Of a stretch of 23,457 nt of DNA, positions 2,998-10,817 are shown piece by piece (the stretch's first letter is position 1; the number at the start of each line of letters is the position of its first letter). Both the position numbers and the translations under genes were made by a program. The stretch is from positions 1-23,457 of IMG/VR virus record IMGVR_UViG_3300042691_050257; one strand, 5' to 3'. The notes beneath the pieces were generated by a model that saw only the letters and a list, made by a program, of their open reading frames with translations, had not been told where the DNA came from and did no database searches. The stretch comes from a virus.

Positions 2998-3241
2998 AGA
3001 AAAGATATACGCCATCGCGTATGAAGATGGATTTTGGAATTGGATTGAGACTTCTAGAGATGCCCTTCCATATCTTAAACAAGGCTTCTCGCTTCTTAAT
3101 GATCTTATGCGTGATCACCATTGCCTATATGTTTGGCCCAACGACAAAGACTCTCTCATAGATATGTTTGAATCCAAGTATGGTGACGAAGTTCAGCGAA
3201 CCAAGCTTATGGCTCTTTTAGGAGTACACTCTGACTCCTGA
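2987..3241 (+). CDS. Hypothetical protein, 84 aa; paralog of the gene at 2373
   Basis: The 84-residue product matches the 2373 gene product in order and spacing: KIYAIAYEDGFWNWIET against NIVVVFQKDYVTWLDT, then LLND, LYVWPNDKDSLID against VYIWPQNRDKILD, and VQRTKLMALLG against VQRDSLLNSLLG. Most identity lies in the Trp-Pro strand and the C-terminal helix, which suggests a buried core. Function is unknown. Its 3' end contains the AGGAG (3220-3224) that appears to drive the next gene from a CTG codon. Confidence 0.75.
   Translation: MQNEEKIYAIAYEDGFWNWIETSRDALPYLKQGFSLLNDLMRDHHCLYVWPNDKDSLIDMFESKYGDEVQRTKLMALLGVHSDS
3220..3233 (+). promoter_or_regulatory. Ribosome-binding site deciding a CTG start
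   Basis: AGGAGTACACT is followed directly by CTG. The same 11 bases at 9004-9014 are followed directly by ATG at the start of the 9015 gene. Both are therefore likely initiation regions of the same type, one with an A-to-C change in the first codon position. Confidence 0.55.
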
Positions 3242-3656
3242 CCCAACACTACTGCACCAAATTCGAACCTTTCGAGAACGACTTGAAACCTATTGCTGGA
3301 CACCAGATACAAGTTCATGTGGAAGCCAAGGCTCAAAAGGACAGTGTGCTGTTACGGCTATGCTGTTGAAAGAACGATGGCCAAACAGCTCTTACAGAAG
3401 CGCCGTTATGAACGGCGAATCTCATTGGTATTTAAGAATCCAGCTTGCAGATACTGCTGTTGATGTAGACATCACAGCAGATCAGTTTGGCTTAAGCCCA
3501 ATACAAGTTGGTCTCGACATATATCCAGATAGCAAAGAACGACACGAAAACGAAATCGACGAAGATACTCGGCGCCGGTTCTCAATCCTTAAAACCAGGT
3601 ATCGAGAACTCGCCTTGTTTCTCGATATAGATTATTGGTGGATGACAGCATCATGA
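3231..3656 (+). CDS. YunG-like protein with apparent CTG start, 141 aa
   Basis: From the first ATG (3360) only 98 residues would be made, cutting into a recognisable domain. The frame is open upstream to a TAG at 3219-3221, and the extra residues are clearly part of the same fold: CWTPDTSS, then SKGQCAVTAMLLKERW, later GESHWYLRI and VDVDITADQF. These match my memory of the YunG family (W..[DE]TS, GQC.VTAL, H.YN, DLT..QF), where a Cys, His and Asp recur in a papain-like order; here C39, H65 and D80. No ATG, GTG or TTG exists in the extension. CTG 3231 has AGGAG six bases upstream, with a leader identical over 11 bases to that of the gene at 9015. Biochemical role unknown. Confidence 0.65.
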   Translation: MTPDPTLLHQIRTFRERLETYCWTPDTSSCGSQGSKGQCAVTAMLLKERWPNSSYRSAVMNGESHWYLRIQLADTAVDVDITADQFGLSPIQVGLDIYPDSKERHENEIDEDTRRRFSILKTRYRELALFLDIDYWWMTAS

Positions 3657-6598: not shown

Positions 6599-6907
6599 AT
6601 GGCCGTTCGTAAACCACCTGTCTACGGTATCTGGTGTCGTGCCGACAAAAAGTTTTATTGGCTTGATACCGGAGATATTCCGTTTGCTTCACCCACTGCA
6701 CGTATTCTCCGAATGCTAGTTCAGCGCGGACTAATCAAGTATCCAGAAGACGGTCGACTGCTTCCAGACGAAGAGCCGTACCTGGTTATGGAATACAAAC
6801 AAGCTCAAGAAAAGAATTTTGAAATCGTGCGTATTCCCCTACATGAAGGGATCAAAGACAATGGCACTCCAGATGGAACCCCAAAGAAACCGCTTTGGCG
6901 TAGTTAA
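6599..6907 (+). CDS. Hypothetical protein, 102 aa
   Basis: The ATG at 6599 has an AGGAGG five bases upstream. A GTG at 6566 in the same frame would add 11 residues but lacks such a site. The product starts with KPPVYGIWCRADKKFYWLD, is likely alpha/beta, and ends in a basic polar tail (DGTPKKPLWRS). No domain is recognised. Its 3' end overlaps the next gene's start region by 47 bases. Confidence 0.65.
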   Translation: MAVRKPPVYGIWCRADKKFYWLDTGDIPFASPTARILRMLVQRGLIKYPEDGRLLPDEEPYLVMEYKQAQEKNFEIVRIPLHEGIKDNGTPDGTPKKPLWRS

Positions 6908-7757
6908 AGCATTTCTAGCCACCTGCCTAGCCGCCGGCCTTTTGGCCAGCGGCTTTGCTATTCGCGACTGCTCTGCCGATGCTGAATCGCGCGCGCTACA
7001 AGATTACTGGCGTGAGCAGGTCGCTGCCGATGGCGTGAAGCTTGAGACTTCACGCCATCATGCTACTACACTAGAACGTGCGTTACGTGTTGCAGACCGG
7101 CGTCATGATCTGGTAAAAGAGCACTTGGTTCGCACTCAGGCTGACGTGCGAAAGCTTCAGTACCTTGTAGCTTCCAATGGCAAGCTAGAAGCACCACCGC
7201 CGACGATTGTTACTGTCGAGCGCAACGTTCCTGCACCATCGCATAAGTTCAGAACCGTTGACGACTTACTGGTGGCCGAACTGATCACTACGCAATCAGA
7301 GCTAACGACCTCTTACCAGTACGCAGTCTACGAACTAGACTTTCAAACAAGCATTGTCATAACAGACAAACAGGCATCAGTTGACGTACAGGTAGCATCC
7401 GCGGCCGAACCAGATAAGTACGTTCGCGTTGTACAAAAGACTGAATCTTGGGACACCTCGCAAAAGCATAAGCTACTGAAGCCGCAGTTGTTGCTAGGCG
7501 CCACACTAGCTGCCGATCTGACTCCACAGTTGGGCGGAAGCCTAGGCCTTAACTGGCTGCACCCTCATCCAGCCGTAGACGTACTTTCTCCACGCGTAAC
7601 TGGCACTCCAGATACTTTCTACTTTGGTATCGACGCCCTACACTACAACGTAGGCGATCCAATTCCAGTACTAGAAAATCTATGGATTGGCGTAGGTGCA
7701 AACGTAAGTCATCGCGGTGAATTCTCTGGTGCCCTGACGCTAGGGGCCAAGCTATGA
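6861..7757 (+). CDS. Membrane-anchored coiled-coil protein, about 298 aa
   Basis: One N-terminal hydrophobic helix (about residues 13-34, VVKAFLATCLAAGLLASGF) is preceded by basic residues. It could be a membrane anchor or an uncleaved signal; the lone Cys just after it lies in RDCSA and is not a proper lipobox. A long charged helical region follows (about residues 40-115, including ERALRVADRRHDLVKEHLV), suiting a coiled coil. The last 100 residues look like a beta-structure with alternating hydrophobics (LLLGATLAADL to FSGALTLGAKL). This layout resembles periplasm-facing phage inner-membrane proteins such as spanin-like components, but no specific match is claimed. The start is ATG 6861 or 6873; longer readings begin with non-ATG codons inside the upstream gene. 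Confidence 0.7.
   Translation: MALQMEPQRNRFGVVKAFLATCLAAGLLASGFAIRDCSADAESRALQDYWREQVAADGVKLETSRHHATTLERALRVADRRHDLVKEHLVRTQADVRKLQYLVASNGKLEAPPPTIVTVERNVPAPSHKFRTVDDLLVAELITTQSELTTSYQYAVYELDFQTSIVITDKQASVDVQVASAAEPDKYVRVVQKTESWDTSQKHKLLKPQLLLGATLAADLTPQLGGSLGLNWLHPHPAVDVLSPRVTGTPDTFYFGIDALHYNVGDPIPVLENLWIGVGANVSHRGEFSGALTLGAKL
6930..6953. repeat. GC-rich hairpin in the anchor-coding region
   Basis: GCCGC and GGCC pair with GGCC and GCGGC around a TTTT loop, with one C-A mismatch (6935 against 6948). It lies 70-93 bases after the start codon, within the hydrophobic-helix codons. Confidence 0.4.
7029..7059. repeat. Perfect 12-bp inverted repeat in coding sequence
   Basis: GATGGCGTGAAG (7029-7040) is the exact reverse complement of CTTCACGCCATC (7048-7059), with a 7-base spacer. 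It lies in the coiled-coil region of the membrane-anchored protein. No T-run follows. Confidence 0.65.
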
Positions 7758-8302
7758 CTACTGAAGAAATTCAGGCCATCTGCCAACGCTATCTTGGCCA
7801 GCCAGTAACTCAGCAGCTACTGGAAAAAATTCAAAGCGAGATTGCGCGAGCGCCAGAACACCTGCTGCGCCCACCTCCAATTCATATCGAAATAAACCAC
7901 GTTGTGGAGAAACCATCATTTACCTATATGTATGCAGTAACGAGAAATGCTCTGCCCACGGTAAACACGTGGAGCGAATTGTCAGAACAACGAACGCAGG
8001 AACACAACAGTGCGACGCCTGCCAGGAACTCCTTACAAGGCTACCAGCATTTCCAACCTCTAAGCACAGTAGCTGGTCGCGTTGGTAAAGCCATTAACAA
8101 GCTCAAGCGGCTCATCAATCACTTCAGCAGCCGCCGGTGTACTCAACACCAGCAGCAAGAACTACTAAATGGTTTTACTCGCTACCTAGCAGAACTCGGA
8201 GAACCAAATCCGAGCTCCTACATTACCTTCAAAGACGGCTACCCGGCTTTTGACATGGACAGGATTGACTTCCTATGCTTAAGACCGCCGGTACTGTACT
8301 AA
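7754..8302 (+). CDS. Hypothetical open frame, 182 aa, possibly a fusion by loss of a stop
   Basis: The ATG overlaps the previous stop by ATGA. The first 54 residues (MTTEEIQAICQRYLGQPVTQ to HVVEKP) read like a small helical protein. From 7915 to 8088 the frame lies over a zinc-ribbon gene in another frame, and its translation there looks like a shadow. After about 8090 it again looks protein-like (LLNGFTRYLAELGEP, YITFKDGYPAFDMDRIDFL). A TGA instead of TCA at 7916-7918 would end the first part exactly where the zinc-ribbon gene begins. So this may be a 54-aa gene (7754-7918) plus a separate 3' gene lacking a normal start (perhaps ATT 8093), or one read-through protein. Function unknown. Confidence 0.5.
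   Translation: MTTEEIQAICQRYLGQPVTQQLLEKIQSEIARAPEHLLRPPPIHIEINHVVEKPSFTYMYAVTRNALPTVNTWSELSEQRTQEHNSATPARNSLQGYQHFQPLSTVAGRVGKAINKLKRLINHFSSRRCTQHQQQELLNGFTRYLAELGEPNPSSYITFKDGYPAFDMDRIDFLCLRPPVLY
7906..7917 (+). promoter_or_regulatory. Ribosome-binding site before a non-AUG codon
   Basis: GGAG followed by AAACC and then ATC. The spacing is normal for initiation, but the codon is ATC where the protein family calls for a start methionine. Confidence 0.4.
7915..8088 (+). CDS. FmdB-like zinc-ribbon protein, apparent ATC start, 57 aa
   Basis: In the frame beginning at 7915 the translation is IIYLYVCSNEKC, then ERIVRTTNAGTQQCDACQELLTRLPAF, ending at TAA 8086-8088. This matches the small FmdB-type zinc ribbon in order: aromatic strand, two cysteines, about 20 residues, then CxxC and LxRL. 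Four cysteines would bind one zinc. There is no ATG, GTG or TTG before the first cysteine pair. GGAG at 7906-7909 lies five bases before ATC 7915 and eight before ATT 7918. ATC would give the family-like N-terminus M-I-Y-L-Y-V-C. A single C-to-G at 7917 would restore ATGA. Either a non-AUG start is used, or the gene is newly silenced, or the base is a sequencing error. Such ribbons are often regulators or nucleic-acid binders. Confidence 0.6.
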   Translation: MIYLYVCSNEKCSAHGKHVERIVRTTNAGTQQCDACQELLTRLPAFPTSKHSSWSRW

Positions 8303-9018
8303 CCGACAATGATTTACGGACTGTTAGCCGCTGCTCTGAACTATTTGACTTGGGCGCTAGACTACATCTCGCTCCAGAAGAGCAAATCGTTAAGCGCGCG
8401 CTCGAACACTCGATTGCACAATCTCTTAGAAAAGCACAACTATGGCCAGAGTTCTTTCCCAAAGGAGTAGCTCAGGCCATTACTGACTTGCGACTCTATC
8501 GAGATTATCTAGACGGCCAGGTAATACAATGGCAAAACCAAGCCATTTTGTGGCACGACTTACTGAGTAAAATTCTCAGCCCGGCACAGTACTTTCCTGT
8601 ACTGGGCCCGACTCCATGGCGAGTTCAGGTAAGCAAAACACCTGTTGACATCAACGTAGTTGGAGTTCTGCGAACGGCAAAGAACCAGACACTTCACGTT
8701 CTGTACTATTCACCGTACGCAGACACTCATGATCGACTCAACGATCCAGCTCTGCCATTGCTGCTATCCACCATGGATAAGCTGTTGCCGCAAAGCCACG
8801 CACGAAAAACCAATGTACGCGCACACATTGTCGGCTCCGACAAACAAGGTGGTTTGTATTACAACAACCTTGACTCTGCTAGTGTTACTAACCAAATGAT
8901 AGAGCGCGCGTCATCAATTGTGAAAACGCTAGAGGCCGGCCTTCACTGGCCGGCCCTACCATGTCCTTGGGCGACATGCCCAGTAAAACACAAATGCTCT
9001 TCCAGGAGTACACTATGA
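8275..9018 (+). CDS. RecB/Cas4-like PD-(D/E)XK protein with cysteine cluster, degenerate active site
   Basis: The N-terminus TVLTDNDLRTVSRCSELFDLGARLHLAPEE has the form of RecB-family nucleases (L..SDL.....CP..F), with C20. The C-terminus has three more cysteines, C230, C235 and C241 (LPCPWATCPVKHKC). One N-terminal and three C-terminal Cys is the arrangement that holds a 4Fe-4S cluster in Cas4 and AddB. The central strands should carry the nuclease motifs: VDINVVGVL keeps an Asp, but the usual D-Y-K strand reads HVLYYSPY, without the Lys or the second acid. A catalytically weak or DNA-binding role is possible. ATG 8275 overlaps the upstream frame by 28 bases, with no strong ribosome-binding site. 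Downstream are two other nuclease-fold genes. The family call is by motif only. Confidence 0.6.
   Translation: MLKTAGTVLTDNDLRTVSRCSELFDLGARLHLAPEEQIVKRALEHSIAQSLRKAQLWPEFFPKGVAQAITDLRLYRDYLDGQVIQWQNQAILWHDLLSKILSPAQYFPVLGPTPWRVQVSKTPVDINVVGVLRTAKNQTLHVLYYSPYADTHDRLNDPALPLLLSTMDKLLPQSHARKTNVRAHIVGSDKQGGLYYNNLDSASVTNQMIERASSIVKTLEAGLHWPALPCPWATCPVKHKCSSRSTL
8934..8955. repeat. GGCCGGCC hairpin
   Basis: Two copies of the self-complementary GGCCGGCC (8934-8941 and 8948-8955) flank TTCACT, forming an 8-bp all-GC stem within the RecB/Cas4-like gene, just before the C-terminal cysteine codons. No T-run follows. Confidence 0.5.
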
Positions 9019-9368
9019 GTCGTTCTTGGGGAACAGACTTCGTAATCGTTAACGACGTTCATCAGCGCCTATCACAAGAACATCCAGGATGGGAGCATTG
9101 GGCCACTATCAGACGTGGCCTAGATGAATACATTGTTTTCCATTGCAATCCAGGACCAGAACACGTTCTTGACACCGGATATGCTGGTCGTACATATATT
9201 GAAAAGCTTGCACGCGATCAAGTCCAAATTGCCTTTGTTCAAATTGAAAACCCTGTAGAATTTGAAGACGTCGAAGGGTTTGCCCGTGCGGCCGGCCTAC
9301 TACACCGCGATGGCAAAACAGAACTAAAACTAGGATACTGGTACGATGACCAATTTACGGGCACTTAG
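9015..9368 (+). CDS. Hypothetical protein, 117 aa
   Basis: ATG 9015 overlaps the previous stop by ATGA and has AGGAG six bases upstream, so the earlier ATG at 8961 is not preferred. The product looks like a soluble alpha/beta domain: a helix with VNDVHQRLSQEHPGWEHW, strands DEYIVFHCN and QVQIAFVQI, then a basic-acidic C-terminus ending in YWYDDQFTGT. I recognise no family. It overlaps the endonuclease gene by 23 bases and sits within the DNA-processing cluster. Confidence 0.75.
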   Translation: MSRSWGTDFVIVNDVHQRLSQEHPGWEHWATIRRGLDEYIVFHCNPGPEHVLDTGYAGRTYIEKLARDQVQIAFVQIENPVEFEDVEGFARAAGLLHRDGKTELKLGYWYDDQFTGT

Positions 9369-9771
9369 ATCTCGCTGGACAGACCAGTTCAAGCAGCTGC
9401 CAAACCAAAGTCAATTTCACGAACGTACAAGACAGCTGTTGTGCCAGGGCATGTTCAAAAGCTTTAAGGCCTACCAGGAAGTACCAGTAGATCAAATCTG
9501 CGATTACGACAATGGCAGTCACAGATTTGACTGGTACATCCCAGATCTAAATGTCGTTATTGAACTGCATGGCGAACAACACTATAAGCCAACAAATCGA
9601 GGCAATATCTCTTACAACAAAGCTCTTCAGGAATTTGAAAACGGACGCATGCGCGACTCAGCAAAAAAACAGGCCGCCATTGAGTCTGGAATTAAATACG
9701 TGGAGATACCTTACTCCCTAGCACACAAGCTAGATCTAGAAACCCTAAAGCAAATGGTGCTAAATGACTGA
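9346..9771 (+). CDS. Vsr/EDxHD-type PD-(D/E)XK endonuclease
   Basis: The 141-residue protein has the core of the Vsr-like and I-Bth0305I-type nuclease group: E45 in AYQEVPVDQI, D62 in HRFDWYIPDLNVVIELHGEQHY, the GEQH motif with H79, and RMRDSAKKQAA with D104, followed by GIKYVEIPY. That order (E, D, then QH, then RD..K) fits the EDxHD catalytic pattern known from phage homing and repair nucleases. It would cut double-stranded or mismatched DNA. It is free-standing, not inside an interrupted gene, so mobility is not shown. It overlaps the upstream gene by 23 bases and the ClpP-like gene by 8. Confidence 0.75.
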   Translation: MTNLRALRSRWTDQFKQLPNQSQFHERTRQLLCQGMFKSFKAYQEVPVDQICDYDNGSHRFDWYIPDLNVVIELHGEQHYKPTNRGNISYNKALQEFENGRMRDSAKKQAAIESGIKYVEIPYSLAHKLDLETLKQMVLND

Positions 9772-10414
9772 AGACGTTACTGAAGAAGTTCTTCCTGAGG
9801 ATATCGCAACAGAAGAGGCAGAAGAAGGCGGTATGCTTCTCGGCCTTGGAGATGCCGATTGGCAACCAAGCGAAGTAGTGGGGTTCGGCCCAGGCTCTCG
9901 CGTTATCCCACTGTTTGGTGAGTTTGGCGACGAAATGCTTTTGCCGCTCATGAGTCAGCTTATCGAGCTTGACCGAGCAGAGCCAGAAACGCCAATTACC
10001 ATTCTGCTCCATTCGATCGGAGGAGACGCCGTTGCTTGCTTTGCTCTTGCAGACTTGGTCAAAGCGCTAACTTCACCCATCAAGATTGTTGTGATCGGCC
10101 AGGCAGCCTCAGCTGGCCTGCTTTTCCTACAAGCAGCCGATGAGCGAGTGGCCCTCCCCAGTGCACGCTTCTTCTACCATGCACCAATTGCCGAAGGGCA
10201 GGCTATGACACCGTACGGCGCTGCCAGCTTTGCTGCCAACTACAAGCGCATGTCTGATCAGGCAAAAAAGCTTATGCGCGCCAAGACCGAAATCTCAGAT
10301 GCAGATTGGCTGCAATTCTTTGATGACACAGTAGGTCATGAGTTTGGCGTTGACGAGGCTCTTGCCTGGAAGGTCATTGATCGTCTTGCAACCGCAGAGG
10401 ATTTTCATGGCTAG
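9764..10414 (+). CDS. ClpP-like (S14) serine protease
   Basis: The 216-residue protein has the ClpP fold signature: ITILLHSIGGDAVACFALAD (strand, GG turn, helix), GQAASAGLLFLQAAD with the nucleophile Ser116, and LPSARFFYHAP with His139. The expected catalytic Asp region aligns with FFDDTVGHEFGVDEALAWKVID. The usual Asp (seven residues before EA) is replaced here, with Asp187/188 or Asp197 as candidates. The first 24 residues are strongly acidic, and there is no signal peptide. In phages this family usually matures proheads or degrades host proteins. No capsid gene is nearby, and the neighbours are DNA nucleases, so a role outside head assembly is open. It overlaps the genes on both sides by 8 bases. 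Confidence 0.8.
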   Translation: MTEDVTEEVLPEDIATEEAEEGGMLLGLGDADWQPSEVVGFGPGSRVIPLFGEFGDEMLLPLMSQLIELDRAEPETPITILLHSIGGDAVACFALADLVKALTSPIKIVVIGQAASAGLLFLQAADERVALPSARFFYHAPIAEGQAMTPYGAASFAANYKRMSDQAKKLMRAKTEISDADWLQFFDDTVGHEFGVDEALAWKVIDRLATAEDFHG

Positions 10415-10817
10415 TAGAGGAAGGGGTGCCCGAGTCAAGGGCGCCCAGTTTGAAAGAGATGTGGCAGAATGGCTTACCTCTCATACACCAGATGGCTGGG
10501 AATTCAAACGTGGTTTAGGTCAAGCTAGAAGCGCCGCGACCGAAGGTGGCGACGTACAATGTGATAAACTTGACGGCGTAATGCACTTTGAGTGCAAGCG
10601 CCAAAAGAATTCACAGCCCAAAGCCGCTATGGATCAAGCAATAGCAGATGCAGGCACAGCAGTGCCTATCGTCATTACAAAAGACGACCGTCGCCCAACG
10701 TTGGTAACTATGCGGCTAGAAGACTGGCAAATTCTATTTAATGCCTGGCTATCTACATGGAGTACCAATGCTGCGAAAGATCAAGCAAAGGAAAAACCCG
10801 CTTCACCTGCGAGTTAA
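10407..10817 (+). CDS. Hjc-like Holliday-junction resolvase (PD-(D/E)XK)
   Basis: ATG 10407 follows AGAGG with a six-base spacer and gives 136 residues. The order of motifs is that of archaeal-type Hjc resolvases and related phage enzymes: a basic N-terminus, KGAQFERDVAEWL (E16), a GLGQARSAATEGGDV turn with D49, the ECK motif FECKR (E62 and K64), then MDQAIADA. The enzyme would cut branched DNA during phage recombination, replication or packaging. The C-terminus is a lysine- and alanine-rich tail. It lies immediately downstream of the ClpP-like gene and overlaps the next gene by 50 bases, the longest overlap in this part of the block. Confidence 0.75.
   Translation: MASRGRGARVKGAQFERDVAEWLTSHTPDGWEFKRGLGQARSAATEGGDVQCDKLDGVMHFECKRQKNSQPKAAMDQAIADAGTAVPIVITKDDRRPTLVTMRLEDWQILFNAWLSTWSTNAAKDQAKEKPASPAS

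Follow-up and report, generated by a model that had tools for sequence, protein, structure and literature searches.

Initiation at AUU is established for the E. coli genes infC and pcnB (PMC9410913). In S. aureus, cvfC1 encodes a putative zinc-finger protein of 61 aa and also begins at AUU, downstream of an extended Shine-Dalgarno (SD) sequence (PMC13009471). Another described case is S. aureus ccpN, whose start codon is AUA. In these genes an AU-rich near-cognate start stands behind an SD. The locus described here, which lies in an IMG/VR phage contig of 23,457 bases analyzed over its whole length (hereafter the window), has the same arrangement and resembles cvfC1 also in that the gene is small and encodes a putative zinc-finger protein, whereas the candidate start is AUC followed by AUU and belongs to a phage gene nested in another open reading frame (ORF). 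AUC is a very rare start codon, which speaks against such initiation. The protein itself resembles the FmdB family (Zn_ribbon_8, TIGR02605, T4-type gp39.2), whose members are short, start near a YxYxC motif, carry two cysteine pairs and occur in tailed phages; it differs from them in its family scores, which stay below the cut-offs, in a first cysteine pair spaced CxxxxC, and in having no ATG start. As in other nested overlapping phage genes, the whole gene sits inside another frame, but the outer frame shows no coding constraint across the shared bases, suggesting a possibly recent and one-sided overlap.

The original prediction held that a single base, C7917, removes both a start and a stop at a gene junction, and this is what the bases show: positions 7915-7917 are ATC, and positions 7916-7918 are TCA in the frame that begins at 7754 (Table 1). 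The zinc-ribbon frame reads ATC ATT TAC from 7915, while the frame from ATG 7754 reads CCA TCA TTT across the same site and stays open to 8302, giving 182 codons. The zinc-ribbon frame is open from 7765 to its stop at 8086-8088, and its upstream part holds no ATG, GTG or TTG. Its sole canonical start codon, GTG 7969, sits past the first cysteine pair, so that no canonical start preserves the conserved N-terminus, where ATC 7915 and ATT 7918 are the only near-cognate codons.

Table 1 Features of the zinc-ribbon locus and of the second start-less gene in the window.
Feature	Position	Strand	Remarks
YunG-family gene	3231..3656	+	Best start CTG 3231; frame 3222-3656
Leader AGGAGTACACT, 11 bases	3220..3230	+	Precedes CTG 3231; identical leader before ATG 9015
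Upstream conserved gene	6861..7757	+	33% identity to L002:10213-11085, 28% to L019; ends in ATGA 7754-7757
Segment A, codons 1-54 of the read-through ORF	7754..7915	+	Codon log-odds +17.9 over 53 codons, coding-like
SD motif GGAG	7906..7909	+	5 nt before ATC 7915, 8 nt before ATT 7918
FmdB-like zinc-ribbon gene, 57 aa	7915..8088	+	First codon ATC (or ATT 7918); stop TAA 8086-8088
Middle of the read-through ORF, +1 frame over the zinc ribbon	7916..8086	+	Log-odds -5, typical of off-frame sequence, not coding-like
Segment C, final third of the read-through ORF	8089..8302	+	Log-odds +9, coding-like
Downstream conserved gene	8275..9018	+	36% identity to L002:11270-12010, 31% to L019:3969-4709; 28-nt overlap with segment C

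No close relatives turned up among 50,697 phage records searched at the DNA and protein levels with the region and the large tail protein as queries; when the 7917 site was scanned for as a DNA pattern, a single contig matched, an unrelated one. Scans of viral contigs yielded two distant syntenic phages, L002 and L019, and scans of genome contigs yielded none. The better of them, the 82-kb contig L002, carries in this order a homologue of the gene at 6861-7757, a zinc ribbon, and a homologue of the gene at 8275-9018. Because its zinc-ribbon homologue was found at the syntenic position with a tblastn E of about 1e-8, the zinc-ribbon frame is clearly not a chance one, in agreement with the earlier claim that a zinc-ribbon protein is encoded from 7915. 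The two proteins are 35% identical and share the four cysteines as well as RLPA and HxSWSxW, and the L002 gene starts with ATG and forms an ATGA junction with its upstream gene. In the L019 contig no zinc ribbon was found and other small ORFs occupy the corresponding place, implying that the slot between the conserved neighbours is variable. Farther downstream, at 9346-10817 (+), a homing-endonuclease-like gene, a ClpP-like protease and a PDDEXK/RusA-like nuclease follow one another, in the same order as in L002 and L019.

All zinc-ribbon profile matches were weak (Zn_ribbon_8, E 0.0035; phrog_13665, E 3e-4; TIGR02605, E 0.0037), and the scores fell under the curated cut-offs (17.8 versus 34.4 bits for Zn_ribbon_8, 17.3 versus 31.3 for TIGR02605); we therefore call the protein FmdB-like and not a member of the family. 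The weak scores converge on the FmdB-like zinc ribbon, and the product of 7915-8088 has the two cysteine pairs and the N-terminal YxYxC of that pattern. In an alignment with the L002 protein and T4-type gp39.2, which also gave the only matches, weak ones, in searches of phage records with the zinc ribbon, C7, C12, C33, C36 and Y3/Y5 are invariant. The start of T4-type gp39.2 aligns about one codon away from ATC 7915, and the FmdB-like alignment places the expected N-terminus one to three codons or less from 7915. An AlphaFold (AF2) model of the zinc ribbon from two sequences was too poor for use (mean pLDDT 48). Judged by these sequence comparisons, the zinc ribbon at 7915-8088 is a genuine FmdB-like gene.

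The GGAG motif stands at SD distance from both near-cognate codons. Six of the 33 canonical starts have GGAG at such distances, compared with 1.9% of random positions, and the association of unusual starts with an SD gave a Fisher p of 0.047, a value based on two cases. RNA structure at the 7915 site is weak (-4.0 kcal/mol, whereas canonical starts average -6.3). We propose that GGAG 7906-7909 selects AUC 7915 or AUU 7918 for initiation, which would place the zinc ribbon one frame off within an upstream ORF that has no stop at the junction and reads on to 8302. If the zinc ribbon were instead made by a frameshift from segment A, its frame would be expected to be open upstream, as it is (to 7765, 50 codons into A), but this upstream portion has no coding signal, inspection of the sequence revealed no recognisable slippery heptamer ahead of 7915, and the L002 homologue is a free-standing gene; we consider frameshifting very improbable.

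The two ends of the read-through ORF score as coding and its middle does not (Table 1). The value for segment C is matched by just 0.5% of off-frame windows, with the initial 20 or so codons scoring weaker than the remainder. A single-sequence AF2 model of the 182-aa product agrees with this, being confident at both ends (pLDDT about 80 over residues 1-30, block means of 78-87 over residues 111-170) and falling below 50 over residues 40-106, and structure searches of PDB and BFVD with this model found no relative. No similarity to segment A, segment C or the 182-aa product was detectable in the L002 or L019 contigs. A weak match of segment A to L020:426-530 (E 0.02) falls in a different small ORF. 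The read-through product would consist of the 54 codons of A, a stretch over the zinc ribbon that is a linker at best, and segment C.

The openness of the frame across the zinc ribbon is compatible with chance. With protein and phage codon usage held fixed, the +1 frame was stop-free in 18% of random recodings, a protein-specific null that supersedes a previous estimate in which such openness appeared rare (1.4% of windows), and permuting the zinc ribbon's own codons gave P = 0.21. In L002, stops are present in the +1 frame over its zinc ribbon. The outer frame over the overlap accordingly shows neither stop avoidance nor coding usage, whereas the zinc-ribbon frame is conserved, and selection on both frames, as in a nested pair, was not seen in the overlap. 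The original prediction of a non-AUG start inside a read-through fusion holds in part: the zinc ribbon is real and, as written, needs a non-AUG start within an upstream frame that has no stop. The middle of the 182-aa product shows no independent coding usage, however, and L002 and L019 lack the product, both of which speak against a fusion of long standing. A related possibility is that the sequence is real, the zinc ribbon is now decaying after a recent loss of its start, and the 182-aa fusion is the functional product. The fully open 182-codon frame, the coding-like A and C ends and their confident single-sequence fold prediction would fit such a history, but the zinc ribbon has kept its four cysteines, its tail and an ordinary synonymous codon choice, the SD is intact, and the fusion has neither relatives in the collections searched nor coding usage in its middle; decay is therefore improbable.

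If base 7917 instead reflects an error of sequencing or assembly, or a variant that is minor in the population, the phage would have an ordinary short A and an ordinary zinc ribbon joined by an ATGA junction, with C a relic or expressed otherwise. The ordinary start and junction of the L002 gene point in this direction, as does a fusion middle that appears untranslated in its frame. Junctions of this kind are also common in the block, as originally stated: 4-nt ATGA or GTGA overlaps occur at 9 of 26 listed junctions (one ORF is doubtful), the one at 7754 included. However, such an error would leave the coding-like segment C without a good start. Past the zinc-ribbon stop, the sole ATG, GTG or TTG in the frame of C is ATG 8255, 15 codons from its end; ATT 8093 was rejected as a start because it has no SD and the site is strongly paired (-10.7 kcal/mol), and ATG 7928, which would give a 124-aa product, likewise has no SD. 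As written, C is reached mainly via read-through at 7917, which argues that the base is genuine. The error would also require a separate explanation for a second gene with an unusual start (see below), and the 16.7 kb of coding sequence supported by homologues show no other signs of error, so that we regard an error or variant at 7917 as somewhat unlikely.

The second gene surfaced in a scan for coding segments that lack canonical starts. Its frame contains no ATG, GTG or TTG between 3222 and 3360, where the first ATG is found, and the match to YunG (PF24585) is stronger with the part upstream of this ATG: it has E 4e-11 with that part included and 1e-4 without it, or 43.4 and 22.9 bits, the former above the Pfam cut-off of 27. 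AGGAG lies 6 nt ahead of CTG 3231, and the leader containing it has one further copy in the window. No homologue of the YunG gene was found in L002 or L019, and at most one or two among about 140 coding segments of these two relatives are start-less, so that start-less genes are not general in the group.

The sixteen genes with homologues, 16.7 kb in total, contain no premature stop, which makes a double start-codon error improbable. At an error rate of 1e-4, the probability is about 0.01 for one start-codon hit and about 6e-5 for two; at the highest error rate compatible with zero stops (0.5%), two hits would have a probability of about 0.1. Either one of the two unusual starts could still be an error. 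The CTG 3231 gene, the suitably spaced GGAG and the coding signal of segment C favour a genuine sequence, and the unusual starts are more likely to be real biology than a one-base error. Taking the error probabilities together with the CTG 3231 gene, the SD and segment C, we consider the most likely reading, at about even odds, to be near-cognate initiation at the SD site of a zinc ribbon nested in a read-through frame, in a genuine sequence.

The weak start codon would probably keep the zinc-ribbon protein low, and the YunG-like gene would likewise combine a weak start with a good SD. By extension, the phage might throttle several small genes through good SDs paired with near-cognate starts (CUG in the YunG-like gene, AUC or AUU in the zinc ribbon), one base both weakening the zinc-ribbon start and extending the flanking gene by fusion to 182 aa, and thereby setting the balance between the nested gene and its host ORF; we offer this as a speculative and, on present evidence, unlikely model. 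Because most gene finders recognise only ATG, GTG and TTG, they would overlook or shorten the zinc-ribbon and YunG-like genes. Should the starts be real, near-cognate starts may be more frequent in uncultured phages than annotation indicates, and the locus would be a compact testbed for how a single base shifts the balance between a nested gene and read-through of its host ORF. An error at 7917 would call for caution on single-base oddities in metagenome contigs.

Several further segments were recorded. Two coding-like segments in the two relatives (L023:17053-17742 and L026:15828-16022) have no obvious canonical start near their beginning. In the window, a gap of about 170 bases without clear coding signal (562-731, +) follows a match to phrog_4806 (histidyl tRNA synthetase), and the ORF at 474-734, which overlaps this gap, has a non-coding-like score. 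Between the ORFs at 731-1075 and 1153-1689, a possible 31-aa gene with a TTG start (1068-1163, +) shows coding-like codon usage.
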